Part shown: positions 6,313 to 17,574 of the stretch, piece by piece
How the letters are laid out: every line of letters starts with the position of its first letter
Position numbering within the stretch: the first letter of the stretch is position 1
From: a bacterium
GTDB lineage: Bacteria; Sumerlaeota; Sumerlaeia; SLMS01; JAHLLQ01
Direction of reading: 5' to 3'
NCBI GenBank assembly: GCA_020444065.1
Contig: JAHLLQ010000001.1
Coordinates: forward strand, 744,001 to 808,000
DNA length: 64,000 bases
Notes under the pieces: generated by a model
The model's input: the letters and a program-made list of their open reading frames with translations, nothing else
The model's database searches: none
Told to the model about the DNA's origin: nothing
Position numbers and translations under genes: made by a program

Positions 6313-9300
6313 CTACTCTATCAGCAACCACATATCCGCCACATCGACAACGTGATCATCGTTCCGATCAGCGTAGACGATGCCCGTAGGCTCGAACTCG
6401 GCCGTGCCCAGGAGGTGATCCAAGACGCCGGACGCGGTCATGACGATTGTATGGGCATCGGCGGTGCTGGGCGACGTTTCGCGGTTTCCGGCCACGTCTC
6501 GGGCCACGGAGTAGAACGAGTACAAGTGTCCAGATGGCTCATTGAAGTCGTATGTGGCTTCGGTTGTGGTGGCATACAGGCTGAAAGGCCCGTAATCGGT
6601 GGACATGAAGATTTCGTAATGGTCGATGCCCGAGCCGCCGGAATCGTCGCTGCCTGTGATGGAGAGAGTAACCGGTGTCTGGGTCGACATTTCGGGCAGC
6701 GCATCGATCTCGCTGGTTGGGGCGATGACGTCCAGCGTGTGGACCGTCTCGTTGGTGATGATCGAGTCGTTCAGGTCGAACACGATGGTCGCCTTGTTCT
6801 TGATCACGGTGCCGGAAGGCAGATCCGCCTTCGGAGTGATCGTGAAGTACATGATCCCATCGCCCTCCGGCGGATTGACGTTCGGAGGCAGGAAGCCGTC
6901 GACCGGATCGTCGATGACATTCAGCGTCTCGGGATCTAGCGAGCTGAAGATCCAGGAGAGAACACCGGTTTCCTTATCGAGTGCGCCCTCAATGCGGACA
7001 ACCATGTCCTTGTCGGGTCGCAAATCGACGTCGCCGACGTAATCACTGCGACCGGCAGGAGGCGTCAGCTTGTGCGAGCCGAAGCTCATGTCTCCGAGTT
7101 CAAGGGTATCGAGATCGAATGCATTCACGTCGAGCTGATCGGTGACGGTGACGACCTGGGCAGGCCATGGAGCCTCGGCCATGTTCTCGAACATGACGGT
7201 GTAGAGGATCGGATCGCGGGAGAGGATGTAGTCCCCGTTGGGCCCGTGCTTCTCGTTCGGATCCTTGCCGCCGCCGCTTTCTGTATCGAGGCTGCTGTCG
7301 TCCCCGTAGTCTCCCCCACCGTCATTGTCACAACATGGCGGATTGGGCGGTTCGGAGTGGTCTTTGCAGAAGGCGATGACGTCCTTGGAGACGGACTTGG
7401 ACTCCAACAGATACAGGCCGCAGCCCTCCAGCTCGAAGCGCTGGCGCCACAGAATGCCGAGCCATCCGGAATCGATCAGTCCGGCGACCGGCTCGATCGC
7501 TGCACCCACCCAGCCGGTCTGGTCCGGCGCAGAGATGACATCCGTGGCGATCTTGAAGTAGATCACGTTATTCGCGAATCGCTTCAGATTTCCATAGGTC
7601 GTATCCTGGAGACACCCCTTCTTTTTGAGGCACTCGGTCAGTGCATCCTGGGTGACCTTGTTGTAGGCCGCATTGCCGTAGTCGTAGGCCTTCTTTGCAT
7701 TGTCGTATTTGCTCTTTGCGTCACTGCCCCACGTCCACAGCCATGAGATCTTGTCGTAGAGAGTGCCGTCGATACGGGAGGAACTCGTCTTCGGGACAGT
7801 GAGGGTCATCTCCGTCAGTGTGAAGCCGCCTCCGAGATCCGTCTCGGTCATGGAGATGGGAACCGGCTCTGTGACTTCCGTGATGTGGAGTTCATATACG
7901 GTGGATGACACCTCGGTGCCGTCATCGATCAGGATGCGGCCGATAACGTACTCGCCCGGGACATTTTCGTCGATGACGGCGGAGAGTGTGATCTCCGGAT
8001 CGGGGTCCGGCAGGGCGTAGGATGGTGGAGCGACTCCGATGGTTCGAATCCAGGCGTCGAGCGTGAAGTTGCCGAAGTCCTGGGATGCAACGGCGATCTG
8101 GAAGGAGCCGCTGGAGTTCGCGGGAATGCGAGACAGGGAGAAGACGAACTCGGCAACACTGCGATCGTCGGTCTGGAACGTGGCCATCGGAATGTCGGAG
8201 AGATTCGTGACGGTCCAGTTTCCGGGGGCCTCAAATCCAATCACGGCCGGAGGAGAATCCACGTTTGCACGATTACCGTAGTGGACGGTGTAGGTCTCTT
8301 CGGCACGATAACGCACCTGGTTACGGCCAACGATGTCGACCCAGAGATCGGGACGTTGGCCTTCCACGATGGTGAGCGCATCGGGAAGAGTGAAGGTATC
8401 ACCATACAACACGCGCAGATCGTAGGAGCCGGTTGGCAGATCGTACAGATCGAAGCCGACGCGAGCGACGGCCGGGTTGAGGATCTCGACGAGCGTGGAG
8501 TCGTACACGGTCGCGTCCGGCCCGATCAGATTGAAGGTCGCGGCGGATGTCAGCCCGCCACCGCGGACGTTGAAGACCACGTGCCCGGTATTGCCGGCCT
8601 GGGGAGGCGACATGCCAGTGAGTTCAAAGCCGAGTTCGCTGGCTTGCAGGGTCACTGCCCTCGGCCCACCGGTGACTTTATTTGCGTAGGCGAATACATA
8701 CCAGGTTCCCGGATCGACGGCCGGGGCGACTGTACTGACGTCGGCGGAAGAGGTTTCGACCTGACGCGCATCGAAATCATTGCGTGTCGGCACGCGACCA
8801 TCGCCGAGATAGAGTTCCATCACGCCGGTGTCGAGTGCGCTGTCGAGTGTGACGAGCACGTCCTGTCCCGGTGCGGCGTCGAACTGATACCAGAGCGAAT
8901 CGCCTTCAGCGCCAATCAGTCGCGTGTCGGAATCGCCATCCACCGGCAGGACTGGAATGTCCAGTGCCACGAGCGATGTGGAATCCGCCGTGTTGTTGCC
9001 GTAGTTTTGTCCCTCGAAGATGTCCTTTCGGGCGTTCAGTTCCACGCGCCAGTTGTAGTCACCCGGAAGGGCGCCCGGAACGCGGACGAGAGACTCGGCG
9101 GTATAGCTCTGTCCCGGACCAAGGGTCACGCCGGAGCCAACGAGTTGATCGCCGGCCATCACGGGATCGCCTCCACCATCGGGGACGACCCACACGCGGT
9201 CGCGCCACGGGCCAAAGACGGTGCCCATGCCAACGTTATTGACAGTCCAGGTGACCGGGACGCTTTCGCCTGCGATGGCGCTCGAGGGTCCAAGAACGTC

Positions 9301-12300
9301 AGAGACCGAAACGTCGATATCTGAATCCGCCGTCTCGACGAATTCGTAGGGACCGATGTCGGCGACGACGCCAAGGGACTCCACGCCGGTGTTCGGCGTG
9401 CGCGGATCGTCGTAACGAGGCGCCCCTGCGAAGTCATTGTCCATGCCCGCTGTCGTGTCGGCCGCATCGATGCAGGGACTGATGTAGTTGAGGCGATAAT
9501 CGTAACGCGTGGGATCCTTGAACCGCGGATTCGCGGAGATGTTCCCATTCGTTCCAATCACGTCGGTCACGCCGTTGAAGTTATCTCCATCGGGGTTCCA
9601 GATGTTGCAGTACAGGATATCCGGCTGCGGCGAACCGCAGCAGATTCCGAACCCACGATCGGAGCAGTTGCTGACAATGGAGTTGGTGATGCTCAACGTG
9701 CCGCCGTGCGGGAACACGCCCCATCGCATGTTGTTGATGAGGCAGCCAATAATCTCCACGTCGCTGCCGGATTCGTTCATCACGCCGCGGTCGGCATCAT
9801 CCAGGATGCAGTTAACCAGAAGGGCATAAGAACCCGAGCCATAGAGATAGACCGCGTCGAAGAAGGTGTGGCGGACCACGCATTCACGCATCCCAAACTC
9901 TCCGCCGTTCGATGTGCGAATGACGGCCGTGTTGTTCCAATTCCCATCCGAGGTTCCGCCGCCGTAGAGGACGTTCACATGCTGCAGGTTGATGCTTCCG
10001 CCACTGGCATGGAGCCAGCGCCAATCGCCGACACCGGGGACGGACTCATCGCCGTCCCCATTAGTGTCTCCACCGACGGAATCGTCACGTGAGGACGTGA
10101 AGGTGATCGGCTGTGCGATGGTGCCCAATGCGTTCAAGGTGGCGCTGGCCTGCACCTCGATGCCGAGATCTGCGGCCGGGTCGAATTTGATGACGGCGCC
10201 CGGTTCGATGACCAGCGATGTACCGCTTGGCACAGTGACGAAGCCAGTGACGTGATGCACCGAGTTACCGAGCCAGGTTTCGCTGGCCAGCAATGTCCCT
10301 TCGTGATTCATCTGCAGGTAACGCATCTCGACGTATTCGTTGACATTCACGGTGCCCGCACCAAGCGCCTGGATTCCGTGCCAGTCGCCCGGCAAGGGAT
10401 GCGTAGCCGTGCCGTCGAGGTTCGTATCGCCACCTGCCGCATCGTCGCGCAACGAGGTCATCAGGATGGGCGATCCTGCAGTTGCAGGGGCATCAAGCGT
10501 ACCTTCGACGGTGACTCCAACGCCGTAAACGAACTTCACGATCACCCCGGCAGGGATCGTCAGCATTCCGGTATCCGCAATGTGCAGGTCTTCCTCAACG
10601 ACGATGATCTTGTCGGATGGCCAGGTAACCGCGCCTGTGATCTCTCCACCAGCGTAGAAGATATCCGAAGAATTATTGATGGACGCAGCAAGGCCGAGGT
10701 CGCCGATAGGCGTGCCATCAAGGAGACTCCAATACGCGCGCAATTCAATGGGCCCGTCTGCATAGGAGGTCGTATCCAGAGTGGAGGTTCCTGCCGCGGC
10801 GAAGCCGGAACCGAGGGAATTCTCGACTCCGCTTTGCTTCGCTGTGACTTCCACTTCGGTGTTGGGACGATCGACGCCGAAAGCGCTCCACTCGATTGTT
10901 TCAACGTCGTGAATGAGATAGCGGGATGGACGAATCCACTCGAATAGTGCTGTTCCAACTTCAATTGTTCCAGGATCGCCATCGTCGACGTTTCCAGTCC
11001 CGCCGGAGACATCGATGTTCGACATCGGGAAGCTGTTTGTCCCGCCGCAGTAGATGGCCACGCGACCGCCACCGCCGCCACCGCCACCATCGCCACCGGT
11101 GACGTCGATGACGCCGGAACCGGCGAAGCCGCCGATTCCAAGAAAGACGCTGCCGCCAGAACCGCCGCCGCTCAATGTGTTGGACGCCTGGATGCCACCA
11201 AGTCCCTTGGCAGTGATCGAGCCGTTATTGGTGAGAGTCCCATAGACTTCGAGCTTCACAGCACCACCACCAGCAGCGCCGGGCTCGTAGTAGCTGCGTC
11301 CGCCTCCACTGCCGATGTCGGTCGGCTGGCTCCAGGATCCGTAGCGATCGCCTCCTGGAGCTCCGCTCCCACCCTGGCCGCCCTGGCCGCCGTAACCACC
11401 ACCGGATCCGTTGTAGAAATCGTACGAGCCCTTGCCAGGGCCGGCATCCCCGATGTGTCCCATACCATCGATGTCGATCAAACCATCTTCCTGAATGGTC
11501 GCATCGGTCAGGACGGTGAAGTCCAACGTCTCTCCCGGATCGTGCGAAATAATGCCGCTGGTCTGAATATCGAGGCTCTGCACCTGAAGACCATGCACGG
11601 GATACGCGCGGCCGTCATCGGCGAGCACAAGGTGGGAGATGTCTTCCTGTTCAAGAGGCGTCACCCACTGCTGTGCCAGGCCATTATTGGCGACGAGGAT
11701 CGTGCCGTAGGCGTCGCCGGTCAGTTTTGTGTAGATCGTACCGGCTCCGGCACCTTGCTGGCCGTCACCACCGAAGGCAGTGACTTCGCCGATGTAGTTA
11801 TTTGTGTTTGCGTAGACTGCGATGCGTCCGCCGCCGCCGGCACCGCCGAGGTGCGCGCTGACATCTCCATCGGCGCCGTTCGCGTTGATCTGACCGGAAC
11901 CGGCCAGGGTTGCGCAATTCAACCAAAGGCTACCGCCGGATCCTGCGCCGGAGCGTGTGTTACTCGCGACGATGCCTTCACTTCCATTGGCAGAAACAAT
12001 GCCATCGATCGTGAGCGTACCGCCGACGTTGACCTTCATCGCGCCGCCGCCGGGGGAGCCGTTCTTATAGTAAGAGTGCCCGCCACCGCTGCCGTAGTCG
12101 ACAGGCTGTGTGATGGAACCGTATGTCAGGCCAGCGGTGTCGTCGTAGCCATTGCTTCCGCGCCCGCCGTAGCCGCCGCCGGATCCGTAGTAGAAATCAT
12201 ATCCGCCGGCTCCCGCGCCGGTTTCGTTCGGATAACCGCGTCCATCGAGATCGACGCTGCCGCCGGAGTTCACCGTCATGTCATTCAAAACAGAAAACTC

Positions 12301-14955
12301 AAGGGGATCGGCATTCGGATCGTGGGACAAAATGCCGCCGCTGTTGATCGTCAGGTTCACCAGAGACATCCCCGGTTGTGGGAATGCCATTCCGGCATCA
12401 GCGAGAGTGAGATTCGTGAGTGTCGGTGTCGTGATGAGCGTCACCCACTCCTGGAAGAGTCCGTTGTTGTCGACGACTACTTCGCCGTAGGTCTCGGAGG
12501 TGAGTTTTCTGTAAACGGTTCCTGCGCCGCCGTTTTGCAGGCCTTCACCGCCGTATGCCGTGATGACGCCGGTGAAATTGTCCGTATCCATGTAGGCGGC
12601 CACACGGCCACCGCCACCGGCGCCGCTGAAGACAGTGGCGATATTGGCTTGGCCGCCATTGGCTGCGATCTCGCCATCGCCGGCAAGAGTGGAACAGATC
12701 AGCCAGAGGCTACCGCCAGCACCGGCGCCGGAGGCCGTGTTGGAGTATTGCGTCGAGTCATCGCCATCGGATGTGATGATGCCGTTCACGGTCAGTGTGC
12801 CGCCGACCGTCAGCTTCATTGCGCCCCCACCGGGCTCGCCGGCCTCGGTGTAAGGACGACCACCCCCACTTCCGAAGGCCGTAGGTTCCGAGAATGAGCC
12901 ATAGGTCAGACCGCCGGCTTCCAGATTGCCGCTGCTGCCTCGCCCCCCATGCCCACCGCCGGAGGGGAAGTAGAAGTCATAGGCGCCGGCGCCAAGACCC
13001 TCTTCGGAGATGTGTCCGCGCCCATCAAGATCGACCGTTCCCCCAGGGTAGATGGTGGCATCGTTCATGACGCTAAATTCGAGGGCTGTTGCGTTCGGAT
13101 CGTGAGAGATGATGCCGTCCTGGAGGACTTCAAGGCTCGCGAGTGAAATGCCGGGTTCAGGGAAAGCCATACCGGCGTTTGCAACGCGCAGATGGTATGT
13201 CGGTGTGTCGCCAAGCGGAGTCACCCACTGCTGCGGAAGGTCGTTGTTGTCGATATCGACCGTGCCGTAGGTCGCAGAGTCGAGCTTGCGATAGATTGTG
13301 CCGGCACCGCCGCCTTGTTTGCCTTCGCCGCCGAGGGAAAGGACCTGACCACCGAAATTATCCGTGGCGGCGTAGATGGCGATACGACCTCCGCCGCCGG
13401 CTCCGGCGAAGTAGCTGGGAACCGTGGAAGCTCCACCGTTCGCGCCGATTTCACCAAGGCCTTCGAGGGTCGAACAGATGATCCAGACACTACCTCCCGA
13501 TCCCGCACCTGAGACGGTATTCGAAGCGTTCTGAGAATCCAAACCATCGACAGAAATCGCCCCATCAACGGTAAGGGTGCCGCCAACCTGCAGTTTGACG
13601 GCGCCGCCGCCGGGCTCGCCATCAAGGTAGTAACCGTGGCCACCACCGCTGCCGAAATCGGTGGGTTCATGAATAGAGCCGTAAGTCATTCCTCCTGAGT
13701 CATTTCCATCGCTGCCTCTGCCGCCGTAGCCGCCGCCGGAAGGATAATAAAAATCATATCCGCCGGCACCTGTGCCGGTTTCATTCGGATAGCCTCGTCC
13801 ATCGAGATCGATCATGCCGCCTACGCCAATCATCGCGTCGTTGACAACGCTGAAGTCGAGCGCCGTGGCGTTCGGATCATGGGAGATGAGCCCTCCGCTT
13901 TGAACGTCAAGACTGATCAGAGCGACACCAGGCTCCGGGAAAGCCATTCCTGCATTCGCAACGTCGAGTTCAAACTGGGGAGTGCTGCCGAGCGGCGTGA
14001 CCCATTGCTGGGCGAGGCCATTGTTGTTGATCGCCACGACACCGTAAGAAGCCGCGTCGAGTTTTGTGTACACCGTACCGGCGCCGCCGTTCTGCAAGCC
14101 TTGTCCGCCGTAAGCGGAAGCGGTGCCGCTGAAGTTGTTGGTGGCCATGTAAAGAGCGACGCGTCCGCCGCCGCCCGCGCCGGCGTTGTAATCCGGAATG
14201 GCCGCGCTGCCACCGTCTGCCGAAATCGTTCCGGAGCCTGCCAGCGTTCCGCAATCAACCCAGATACTGCCGCCAGAACCTGCGCCGGAGACAGTATTAG
14301 AGCTTTGATTGCTGCTTAGTCCATCTGCGGAAAGCGATCCGTTGATCGTGGCAGTGCCCGAGACCGTGAAACGCATCGCGCCACCGCCAGGCTCGCCGTC
14401 ACGGTAGTAGCAATGGCCACCGCCGCTGCCTGGAGACGTTGGCTCGTGGATTGATCCGTAGGTCAGGCCGGCAGTATCGTCGTTGCCGTTGCTGCCGCGT
14501 CCACCGAATCCAGCGCCAGATGGGCGGTAGAAATCGTAGCCACCCGCCCCCGGGCCTTTCTCGTTGATGTAGCCCGTACCGTCAGCGGAAATCGTCGAGC
14601 CCGAATCAACGGATAGCGATCCGGCTGTGAAGGTCACGCCTATTCCCGCCCAGAGCCCTCCGACCTGGGCCGTGTTGTCCTTGGTCTTGCAGACAATGAA
14701 CGAGTTGCCGGTAACCGAGATGCCGCTCGTGACATTGACTGTCGAGCCACCGTCGATCGTCAGCACTGCGCCGCTCTGCACGGTCAGGCTGTTCATGTTG
14801 TAAGTGTTCTCGGTCCAGTTTGTGTTGGTCGAGATGACCGTATCCTGGGCCTGAACAGAATAGACGGTTAGAAAACTGAAGGCGAGGAGCGCCGGAAACG
14901 GGCGCCTCCGCATGAAATCGCGACAAAGCGCCAGACACTCCCGGACAGCACCCAT
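6313..14955 (-). CDS. Giant secreted repeat protein with beta-helix, CARDB and dockerin-like tail
   Basis: 2,880 residues from the ATG at 14955, chosen because AGGAGG lies 6 bases upstream; an in-frame GTG at 15000 is possible. A Sec signal ends near V-Q-A-Q. Five glycine-rich repeats of about 259 residues follow (roughly residues 110-1330), each with G-x-YDFY, SGGG-x-GG, GEPGGGA, GAGSGGS and GAGGGGR blocks. Next come a right-handed beta-helix region (about 1460-1850), a CARDB-like domain (about 1880-1990), a pre-peptidase-C-like and an IPT-like stretch, a DPNEK-starting domain of the kind common in surface proteins (about 2565-2745), and an Ig/FN3-like domain. The extreme C-terminus, DRNDDHVVDVADM, is half of a dockerin-type EF-hand. 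Likely an extracellular or surface-attached structural/adhesive protein. No catalytic motif is visible. Confidence 0.85.
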   Translation of the reverse strand: MGAVRECLALCRDFMRRRPFPALLAFSFLTVYSVQAQDTVISTNTNWTENTYNMNSLTVQSGAVLTIDGGSTVNVTSGISVTGNSFIVCKTKDNTAQVGGLWAGIGVTFTAGSLSVDSGSTISADGTGYINEKGPGAGGYDFYRPSGAGFGGRGSNGNDDTAGLTYGSIHEPTSPGSGGGHCYYRDGEPGGGAMRFTVSGTATINGSLSADGLSSNQSSNTVSGAGSGGSIWVDCGTLAGSGTISADGGSAAIPDYNAGAGGGGRVALYMATNNFSGTASAYGGQGLQNGGAGTVYTKLDAASYGVVAINNNGLAQQWVTPLGSTPQFELDVANAGMAFPEPGVALISLDVQSGGLISHDPNATALDFSVVNDAMIGVGGMIDLDGRGYPNETGTGAGGYDFYYPSGGGYGGRGSDGNDSGGMTYGSIHEPTDFGSGGGHGYYLDGEPGGGAVKLQVGGTLTVDGAISVDGLDSQNASNTVSGAGSGGSVWIICSTLEGLGEIGANGGASTVPSYFAGAGGGGRIAIYAATDNFGGQVLSLGGEGKQGGGAGTIYRKLDSATYGTVDIDNNDLPQQWVTPLGDTPTYHLRVANAGMAFPEPGISLASLEVLQDGIISHDPNATALEFSVMNDATIYPGGTVDLDGRGHISEEGLGAGAYDFYFPSGGGHGGRGSSGNLEAGGLTYGSFSEPTAFGSGGGRPYTEAGEPGGGAMKLTVGGTLTVNGIITSDGDDSTQYSNTASGAGAGGSLWLICSTLAGDGEIAANGGQANIATVFSGAGGGGRVAAYMDTDNFTGVITAYGGEGLQNGGAGTVYRKLTSETYGEVVVDNNGLFQEWVTLITTPTLTNLTLADAGMAFPQPGMSLVNLTINSGGILSHDPNADPLEFSVLNDMTVNSGGSVDLDGRGYPNETGAGAGGYDFYYGSGGGYGGRGSNGYDDTAGLTYGSITQPVDYGSGGGHSYYKNGSPGGGAMKVNVGGTLTIDGIVSANGSEGIVASNTRSGAGSGGSLWLNCATLAGSGQINANGADGDVSAHLGGAGGGGRIAVYANTNNYIGEVTAFGGDGQQGAGAGTIYTKLTGDAYGTILVANNGLAQQWVTPLEQEDISHLVLADDGRAYPVHGLQVQSLDIQTSGIISHDPGETLDFTVLTDATIQEDGLIDIDGMGHIGDAGPGKGSYDFYNGSGGGYGGQGGQGGSGAPGGDRYGSWSQPTDIGSGGGRSYYEPGAAGGGAVKLEVYGTLTNNGSITAKGLGGIQASNTLSGGGSGGSVFLGIGGFAGSGVIDVTGGDGGGGGGGGRVAIYCGGTNSFPMSNIDVSGGTGNVDDGDPGTIEVGTALFEWIRPSRYLIHDVETIEWSAFGVDRPNTEVEVTAKQSGVENSLGSGFAAAGTSTLDTTSYADGPIELRAYWSLLDGTPIGDLGLAASINNSSDIFYAGGEITGAVTWPSDKIIVVEEDLHIADTGMLTIPAGVIVKFVYGVGVTVEGTLDAPATAGSPILMTSLRDDAAGGDTNLDGTATHPLPGDWHGIQALGAGTVNVNEYVEMRYLQMNHEGTLLASETWLGNSVHHVTGFVTVPSGTSLVIEPGAVIKFDPAADLGIEVQASATLNALGTIAQPITFTSSRDDSVGGDTNGDGDESVPGVGDWRWLHASGGSINLQHVNVLYGGGTSDGNWNNTAVIRTSNGGEFGMRECVVRHTFFDAVYLYGSGSYALLVNCILDDADRGVMNESGSDVEIIGCLINNMRWGVFPHGGTLSITNSIVSNCSDRGFGICCGSPQPDILYCNIWNPDGDNFNGVTDVIGTNGNISANPRFKDPTRYDYRLNYISPCIDAADTTAGMDNDFAGAPRYDDPRTPNTGVESLGVVADIGPYEFVETADSDIDVSVSDVLGPSSAIAGESVPVTWTVNNVGMGTVFGPWRDRVWVVPDGGGDPVMAGDQLVGSGVTLGPGQSYTAESLVRVPGALPGDYNWRVELNARKDIFEGQNYGNNTADSTSLVALDIPVLPVDGDSDTRLIGAEGDSLWYQFDAAPGQDVLVTLDSALDTGVMELYLGDGRVPTRNDFDARQVETSSADVSTVAPAVDPGTWYVFAYANKVTGGPRAVTLQASELGFELTGMSPPQAGNTGHVVFNVRGGGLTSAATFNLIGPDATVYDSTLVEILNPAVARVGFDLYDLPTGSYDLRVLYGDTFTLPDALTIVEGQRPDLWVDIVGRNQVRYRAEETYTVHYGNRANVDSPPAVIGFEAPGNWTVTNLSDIPMATFQTDDRSVAEFVFSLSRIPANSSGSFQIAVASQDFGNFTLDAWIRTIGVAPPSYALPDPDPEITLSAVIDENVPGEYVIGRILIDDGTEVSSTVYELHITEVTEPVPISMTETDLGGGFTLTEMTLTVPKTSSSRIDGTLYDKISWLWTWGSDAKSKYDNAKKAYDYGNAAYNKVTQDALTECLKKKGCLQDTTYGNLKRFANNVIYFKIATDVISAPDQTGWVGAAIEPVAGLIDSGWLGILWRQRFELEGCGLYLLESKSVSKDVIAFCKDHSEPPNPPCCDNDGGGDYGDDSSLDTESGGGKDPNEKHGPNGDYILSRDPILYTVMFENMAEAPWPAQVVTVTDQLDVNAFDLDTLELGDMSFGSHKLTPPAGRSDYVGDVDLRPDKDMVVRIEGALDKETGVLSWIFSSLDPETLNVIDDPVDGFLPPNVNPPEGDGIMYFTITPKADLPSGTVIKNKATIVFDLNDSIITNETVHTLDVIAPTSEIDALPEMSTQTPVTLSITGSDDSGGSGIDHYEIFMSTDYGPFSLYATTTEATYDFNEPSGHLYSFYSVARDVAGNRETSPSTADAHTIVMTASGVLDHLLGTAEFEPTGIVYADRNDDHVVDVADMWLLIE
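10945..14600 (-). repeat. Five in-gene tandem repeats, period 777-780 bp
   Basis: The YDFY codon block recurs at 11413, 12190, 12970, 13747 and 14527, giving spacings of 777, 780, 777 and 780 bases. Units differ by substitutions and small in-frame changes; the copy nearest the C-terminus (around 11413) is the most divergent and has an extra glycine-rich insert. Such long direct repeats permit copy-number change by homologous recombination. Outer boundaries are approximate. Confidence 0.9.
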
Positions 14956-15043
14956 GATGGGCCTCCTGAACAATTGAGGACTATGGGCAGGATTCTGCAC
15001 GCTTTACGTGCAGGCGGCAAGGAGTATCGGGTCTTCGAAGAAA

Positions 15044-16792: not shown

Positions 16793-16913
16793 CAGGCATC
16801 CACCGAGAAAGAGGATGGTCCCGATGTGATGCCCTGAGAGGAGTTGCGTGCAAGAAGTTTCCCGGAGTGCATGGTCCAAAAGGGCGTCCGTTCTTGTCAT
16901 TGGAGGAAGGGAT

Positions 16914-16949
16914 GGGGGCTCGGGGGGCTCGGGGGGCTCGGGGGGCTCG
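16914..16949. repeat. Four perfect copies of a 9-bp repeat
   Basis: GGGGGCTCG is repeated four times without change at 16914-16949, in the upstream region of the ABC exporter gene and 17 bases before the left inverted repeat of the S23-type gene. Copy number of such repeats is often unstable, so it may vary between strains and could alter exporter expression. Confidence 0.9.
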
Positions 16950-16966
16950 GATAGCGTGCTCGAACT

Positions 16967-16986
16967 CGTACTCGAACTCGTACTCG
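16967..16986. repeat. Left 20-bp inverted repeat of the four-helix-bundle element
   Basis: This 20-base segment is the exact reverse complement of 17511-17530. It sits in a slightly longer run (from 16959) made of alternating CTCGAA and CTCGTA hexamers. Together the two arms enclose the S23-type gene. Confidence 0.9.
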
Positions 16987-17068
16987 ACATATTGCAATTG
17001 ACCACTTCAATGAGGGATACGTTGCTGGAGCGGGATCTCTCAGCCAATCATGTCGAAGGGGAACCGGC

Positions 17069-17509
17069 ATGGGAAGCGTTGGAAGAACACCGGCATTCGA
17101 TCACGAGCGACTGGATGTCTATCGAGTGTCCCTGGAATTCACAGGCTGGGCCTGGAAGTTGTGTGGCGGACTGACTGGCCAGGATCGGCACGCGCGGGAT
17201 CAATTGCTGCGCGCTTCTCAGTCAATTCCTCTGAATATTGCAGAGGGTAATGGCAAACTCCCCTCTCCGGATCGGATTCGATTTCAGCGAATCGCGCTAG
17301 GATCGGCACTGGAGTGCGCGGCGATCCTGGATGTGCTCAAGGTCTGCGGCAGTATCCAAGAGACCCGGGCAACGGAGGGGAAGATAATGCTGTCCCGAAT
17401 AGTCGCGATGCTGACCAAGATGACTTCGCAATGCGGGATCCGTGTACGAGAGCACCAGGAGTCAGGATACGGACTAGTCGAGGATGATCCGGTAGAATTA
17501 GGATACTGA
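17069..17509 (+). CDS. Four-helix-bundle protein (S23 / 23S rRNA intervening-sequence protein family)
   Basis: 146 residues. The family signature is unmistakable: FDHERLDVYR at the start, DQLLRASQSIPLNIAEG in the middle, then RIALGSALECAAILD. These proteins were first seen inside 23S rRNA intervening sequences of Leptospira and Coxiella and are relatives of Avd, the accessory subunit of diversity-generating retroelements; they form small pentameric four-helix bundles with a basic surface. AAGGGG lies 7 bases before the ATG. The stop codon ends 1 base before the right arm of a perfect 20-bp inverted repeat, and the left arm lies 82 bases before the start. No rRNA or reverse transcriptase gene is nearby, so this is a free-standing copy. 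Molecular function is unknown. Confidence 0.93.
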   Translation: MGSVGRTPAFDHERLDVYRVSLEFTGWAWKLCGGLTGQDRHARDQLLRASQSIPLNIAEGNGKLPSPDRIRFQRIALGSALECAAILDVLKVCGSIQETRATEGKIMLSRIVAMLTKMTSQCGIRVREHQESGYGLVEDDPVELGY

Positions 17510-17574
17510 GCGAGTACGAGTTCGAGTACGTGTACGAGTGCGAGGGATCCCGGTGGCGGTGCACTCGTACTCGC
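17510..17574. repeat. Right inverted repeat and nested palindromes of the S23-type element
   Basis: 17511-17530 is the exact complement of the left arm 16967-16986. In addition, 17510-17520 pairs perfectly with 17564-17574 (11 bp), and 17532-17541 pairs with 17561-17570 (10 bp), so the right end can fold on itself. On the plus strand this fold begins immediately after the stop codon and could also stop transcription, although no clear T-tract follows. Confidence 0.85.

Follow-up and report, generated by a model that had tools for sequence, protein, structure and literature searches.

A gene of the S23 family between mirrored tandem-repeat arms is probably a copy of a small and widespread transposable element

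The window, the whole stretch of 64,000 nucleotides that was analysed, probably holds a copy of a small and widespread kind of transposable element, in which a single S23/IVP gene lies between mirrored arms of tandem repeats. The better-defined elements of this kind are inserted between neighbouring genes, and the window copy belongs to a branch with arm units of 6 nt, the other branches having units of 7 or 8 nt. This reading is carried by the layout of the arms, the inheritance of their unit length with the protein, orthologous sites that are unoccupied, two 5-bp target duplications, mini-elements made of arms only, selection on the gene, and a protein fold like that of Avd.

The S23 locus of the window

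The features of the locus, in window positions, are the following.

16955..16986, plus strand: left arm, hexamers CGTG CTCGAA CTCGTA CTCGAA CTCGTA CTCG
17069..17509, plus strand: S23/IVP gene, type B (hexamer-arm subfamily), 146 aa, four-helix bundle
17511..17544, plus strand: right arm, CGAGTA CGAGTT CGAGTACGTGTACGAG TGCGAG, inverted complement of the left arm
17510..17574, no strand: right-end palindrome, two nested pairings
16955..17574, plus strand: whole S23 element in its proposed extent, approximately 620 bp, outer ends inferred
16911..16950, no strand: nine-base tandem array GGGGGGCTC, which abuts the left arm and has the same CTCG core

The perfect inverted repeats that the earlier note had described around the gene are exact over 20 bp (16967-16986 against 17511-17530) and can be extended without gaps to 28 nt at 93% (16959-16986 / 17511-17538). 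The right arm begins 1 base past the S23 stop codon and the left arm lies 82 bases ahead of the start, which are the same distances as had been claimed. The nested palindromes reported at the right end are also real, with an outer pairing of 12 nt at 100% (17510-17521 with 17563-17574) and a second one at 92% (17529-17541 with 17561-17573), and this end is comparable to that of other S23 elements with palindromic ends (for example loci L324, L325, and L334). The nine-base array is possibly part of the left end of the window element. Read on the minus strand, the same array would lengthen the frame of the adjacent ABC transporter by EPPEPPEPPEPP. The S23 gene is flanked by this ABC transporter gene and by a B-box/AIRS gene pair, and the neighbouring genes examined encode, besides the transporter, a B-box zinc finger protein, an AIRS protein that is probably thiL, and a protein for nickel insertion. 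Elsewhere in the window, positions 6313-15000 of the minus strand encode a predicted secreted protein of 2895 aa with several long glycine-rich internal repeats.

The assignment of the gene to the S23 type is confirmed by matches to PF05635 (70.2 bits, cut-off 33.8) and TIGR02436 (E 1.8e-19, 69.9 bits against 24). PF05635 is the sole family match between the arms, and no transposase gene was found by family matches between the inverted repeats. The window's genome carries two PF05635 genes, the window copy and that of locus L001. The AlphaFold2 model of the window protein consists of four helices (pLDDT 82), and its nearest solved folds are 2gsc and 2rld, both of them S23 proteins, followed by the Avd chains 8ub7 and 4dwl, with target-normalised TM values of 0.81-0.87 and sequence identity of 5-9%. 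Given that 4dwl is free Avd and 8ub7 is Avd in complex with its reverse transcriptase, the modelled S23 fold resembles that of a protein which is the partner of a retroelement reverse transcriptase. The dN/dS of close S23 pairs is mostly 0.05-0.10, indicating that the protein is under purifying selection.

In the minimum-energy fold of the RNA of the window element both 28-nt arms pair (z -4.8). From the hairpin proposed in the earlier note, in RNA or DNA, the folding as RNA is therefore compatible with the prediction. The only hit of an Rfam scan of the window was one tRNA.

Arm architecture and unit length across the S23 family

For the arm score, the upstream flank of each locus was aligned locally with the reverse complement of its downstream flank and the best match was taken, with a threshold of at least 16. 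The sample comprised 80 named S23 loci, drawn from many phyla of bacteria and including two archaeal records; 78 of them were scorable. The threshold was reached by 56 of the 78 scorable loci versus 1 of 289 null windows, and, with 150-bp flanks, by 35 of 73 S23 ORFs versus 0 of the 207 control ORFs taken from these loci. Inverted repeats are therefore present at other copies of the family, the absence of which had been named as evidence against the mobile-element reading. Strong arms are absent in about a quarter of the named loci. The same layout is found in relatives within the window's phylum, in Acidobacteriota, in Spirochaetota, and in cyanobacterial plasmids.

The arms are tandem repeats of a unit whose sequence varies between loci, even inside one genome, while the two arms of any one locus are mirror images, even in the order of their unit variants, as in L168, where they are perfect over 39 nt (TCGTGC, then TCGTAA). 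In heptamer arms, the upstream side has AG at 0.92 per 7 nt (0.18 in the reverse orientation) and the downstream side CT at 0.89 per 7 nt (0.14 in the reverse orientation). Chance and independent slippage were rejected as the origin of the arms, since reversed patterns gave 0 and null windows and control ORFs were near 0.

The length of the unit depends on the type of protein. Where the period of the arms is clear, type A proteins are accompanied by 89 arms of heptamers, 11 of octamers, one of other or ambiguous period, and none of hexamers, while type B proteins, which are those like the window's, have hexamer arms in 14 of 14 cases (Fisher p 2.8e-18). On a tree of 114 proteins, which is a quick one with few columns and many unresolved forks, unit length requires 9 changes versus 24 for shuffled labels, with none of 200 shuffles as low, and the hexamer unit arises as a single change. 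These sequence comparisons show the unit length to be inherited with the S23 protein lineage.

Two loci have repeats of another kind. At L043, mirrored 9-nt repeats (1281-1336 and 1917-1972) surround a four-helix protein with a C-terminal extension, and the right repeat falls within the predicted reading frame. At L338, near-identical direct copies of one palindromic repeat with a common loop GGATGTCCGGCAAAGCAATTGAC stand at both ends of the S23 gene, a layout unlike simple mirrored arms.

Insertion sites and dispersed arms

S23 elements are found inside pairs of genes that are normally adjacent, namely nuoC/nuoD, carA/carB, guaB/guaA, argD/argF, and sdhA/sdhB, which were named from sequence, and the annotated pairs cas6/cas4 and cas10/cmr3. 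The earlier note would have counted it against its proposal if orthologous sites were always occupied; they are not, and empty ones are found in relatives. For nuoC/nuoD of Bosea, 20 of 61 genomes align with the joined flanks without interruption over the junction, the ones that were read among the rest have unrelated small genes at this point, and G040 is the sole genome in which the S23 element was seen. The clearest case is that of occupied and empty alleles of a conjugation operon on cyanobacterial plasmids that are approximately 97% identical. The empty allele reads AAAAAGTAATTAACAAATAA, and the occupied one AAAAAGTAAT, a 423-bp element that starts with AAATCAGAATTCAG and ends with CTGAGTTCTTCTTT, and then GTAATTAACAAATAA; compared with three empty alleles, the insertion has duplicated the 5 bp GTAAT. 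On another occupied plasmid, one of the arms differs by two heptamers, and a third plasmid (L345) retains arm repeats and a truncated S23 gene as a remnant. In Nostoc ATCC 53789, two plasmids that are 95.7% identical carry S23 in the same operon but at two different junctions, each plasmid being empty where the other is filled, and one of the junctions has a TTCTA duplication with a 1-nt difference adjoining. In total, a clean 5-bp duplication was obtained in 2 of 7 comparisons of occupied and empty plasmid sites. No duplication was readable in the other five (cas6/cas4, cas10/cmr3, traM, integrase/hypothetical, and the integrase of Nostoc C057), where the sites are too altered or diverged.

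The arms travel with the gene, given that the related S23 genes of L187, L351, and L352 keep the same arm units at three unrelated sites. The possibility that arms are taken from the target at each insertion was rejected on the same observation. In Spirochaetota, the S23 genes of L334, L335, L336, and L338 are 86-91% identical and at least one flank is unrelated in each pair; L334 and L336 are separated by 3 substitutions over 105 codons, and their common upstream region is 79% identical. Some S23 insertions are old and vertically inherited, such as that in sdhA/sdhB, which is common to three Flavobacteriaceae (L142, L148, and L154). For the window site no empty allele was found, and in 13 relatives the gene order upstream of thiL is not retained. 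Because the site lacks a comparable empty allele, the insertion and the mobility of the window copy are inferred from its relatives.

At the traM site of Nostoc plasmids (L362 compared with L350, L361, and L356), one plasmid carries an arms-only insert of approximately 230 bp, others S23, and another neither. S23 elements also lie inside CRISPR operons, in cas6/cas4 of a plasmid of Anabaena sp. 90 (L190), in cas10/cmr3 of Picosynechococcus PCC 7003 (L349), and in Pseudanabaena galeata (H69). A published survey lists the 23S rRNA IVP among new associations of CRISPR adaptation modules (PMC10910872); the association of CRISPR with S23 may be due to insertion rather than to function.

The arms of the window element are also dispersed in its genome. 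In the 5.2 Mb of this genome (G000), the 16-mer CTCGWACTCGWACTCG was counted 24 times, versus 0 for the control pattern read backwards, and the arm sequence is present at approximately 18 further sites. Most of these look intergenic, and at least one (L007) reads as a match within a coding frame. Beyond the bare hexamers, the dispersed sites have a conserved left end, GCGTACTCGTACTCAGCGAAGCGGYACTCGAACTCGTACTCG, and a conserved right end, CGAGTACGAGTTCGAGTACGTGTACGAG; both ends lie close together, as arm-loop-arm mini-elements, at six sites or more (L011, L012, L013, L015, L016, and L017), and the remaining sites are mostly single ends. The right arm of the window is identical to the dispersed right end over 28 nt, including the non-repeat step TACGTGTA. 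The counts of 24 versus 0, and the recurrence of this right arm with its TACGTGTA step elsewhere, indicate that the repeat is not due to chance. The left end GCGTACTCGTACTCAGCGAAGCGGYACTCGAACTCGTACTCG is found directly upstream of the S23 gene L166 of G019, a genome of the same class, whose protein is 63% identical and which has dispersed copies of its own. Among 40 genomes of the phylum, the pattern gave 24 hits in G000, 5 in G019, and 0-2 in each of the other 38. At L001, the second S23 locus of this genome, the arms are built from the 7-nt unit CGAGTGR, which is dispersed as well (40 matches versus 0 in the control). Other dispersed palindromic families (GAGGTGACTTGGGCATCCTTGCCCAAG; CCCAGGGCTTGCGCCCTGGGCTGGTAT) lie beside hexamer mini-elements at loci L008, L013, L018, L019, and L026 of the same genome. 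The compact mobile element proposed in the earlier note is supported, and in a wider form than the note gave it, by the family-wide arms, the empty orthologous sites, the two 5-bp duplications, and the arms-only mini-elements.

Alternative explanations, known systems, and proposed mechanism

Three other explanations were weighed. The gene could be stationary, with arms that serve for RNase III excision of the S23 mRNA and with a spread due to horizontal transfer and homologous recombination. The pairing of the arms in the RNA fold, the vertical conservation of some sites, and the cutting of Coxiella heptamers by RNase III (PMC4990558) are in line with this explanation; it is nonetheless improbable in view of the clean insertions with 5-bp target duplications at sites that are otherwise unoccupied, the same arm units at the unrelated sites of L187, L351, and L352, and the dispersed arms-only copies. 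RNA processing may be true in addition to transposition. An element of the MITE type, non-autonomous, with S23 as a passenger gene and moved by the DDE transposase of a co-resident IS that makes 5-bp duplications, would likewise have terminal inverted repeats, these duplications, arms-only derivatives, and no transposase between its arms. However, the arm sequence differs by locus even within one genome, so that no single transposase could recognise a fixed terminus; moreover, the unit length follows the S23 protein tree, and purifying selection is not expected for a mere passenger, all of which makes this origin unlikely.

The last explanation, that host repeats of the REP type are spread by RAYT transposases and that the S23 gene landed between two copies, has very little probability. 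The hexamer element is dispersed and palindromic, and the window's genome has four Y1_Tnp genes, yet hexamer arrays were found at 0 of these 4 loci, for which reason dispersal driven by RAYT was rejected. Furthermore, S23 loci of many phyla have arms, the unit length of which goes with the S23 lineage, and dispersal is high only in the genome with the window-type S23 and is less in that of its nearest homologue.

The preferred reading, a transposable S23 element, shares features with several known systems. As in REP/RAYT systems, a single small gene lies between repeats that have arms-only derivatives genome-wide, and the dispersed palindromic repeats of the window's genome are related to the flanks of its S23 gene; in contrast, RAYT is an HUH/Y1 transposase with catalytic residues, whereas S23 is a four-helix bundle in which no catalytic site can be recognised, and the S23 elements have tandem units of 6-8 nt. 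MITEs also have terminal inverted repeats, short target duplications like those at the two cyanobacterial sites, dispersed copies, and no transposase, but S23 elements contain a conserved gene under purifying selection, and their termini vary in sequence while keeping a unit length specific to the lineage. With Avd of diversity-generating retroelements the predicted fold is shared; no reverse transcriptase was found between the window arms or among the neighbouring genes examined.

The heptamer arrays of cyanobacteria known as STRRs have long been used as fingerprinting repeats for heterocystous cyanobacteria. The four cyanobacterial plasmid S23 loci that were examined first have heptamer arms, and the arms at L187-L190 and at other cyanobacterial plasmid loci resemble STRR heptamers. 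STRRs may be arms of S23 elements, a link to S23 genes that was not found in the open-licence papers searched.

The closest known relatives are the intervening sequences (IVS) of 23S rRNA that carry S23 ORFs, the mobility of which was suggested by Ralph and McClelland (1993), as cited in PMC4990558. The IVS of Leptospira and Coxiella resemble the window element in having a single S23 gene within terminal inverted repeats; that of Coxiella is 428 nt long with a 28-bp terminal stem, its ORF is preceded by tandem heptamers GACAGAT, 2-3 in number depending on the strain, the first of which is the site of RNase III cleavage, and no sign was seen of its S23 protein being made (PMC4990558). That account does not treat the heptamers as arms found across the family (PMC4990558), and in open-licence papers no description was found of these arms beyond the Coxiella heptamers, nor, for S23, of lineage-specific unit length, target duplications, or arms-only derivatives. 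The window copy differs from the IVS in its hexamer units and in its location, which is intergenic and not inside a 23S rRNA gene. Copies inside rRNA genes, for which the earlier note had proposed a search, did not appear when conserved 23S probes were applied to the S23 loci collected. The window element is related to the 23S rRNA IVS, but is not one of them.

The mechanism that we propose begins with the S23 protein, which would bind its own arms, given that the unit length is tied to the protein lineage. The mirrored arms, as a hairpin of DNA or RNA, would be the substrate of movement, and host RNase III would cut a stem of RNA, so that insertions into operons or rRNA could be tolerated. 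A strand-cutting enzyme or a reverse transcriptase would probably be supplied in trans, since none is recognisable between the arms, and the likeness to Avd makes a reverse transcriptase one candidate. A broader proposal is held tentatively, at somewhat short of an even chance: S23 elements would be a separate, nearly pan-bacterial class of transposable elements without a transposase of their own, in which an Avd-like protein recognises mirrored arms whose repeat length is specific to the lineage and delivers them, in the form of RNA or of a DNA hairpin, to a polymerase or nuclease that is resident or belongs to the host, giving 5-bp duplications, and of which the 23S rRNA IVS and many dispersed families of 6-8-mers, such as the cyanobacterial STRRs, would be descendants. 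There is a substantial chance that the S23 element should be regarded as a separate class.

In the genome annotations of very many bacteria, S23/IVP genes are listed as "four helix bundle protein" of unknown function. The present findings pose the question of which enzyme moves an element that encodes none, and warn that an S23 gene within a conserved operon, for instance a cas operon, may be a hitchhiker. They also suggest an origin for the intervening sequences of 23S rRNA and a source for dispersed heptamer repeats. Together, the arms, their inherited repeat length, and the target duplications give the S23 family a testable role as a mobile element.
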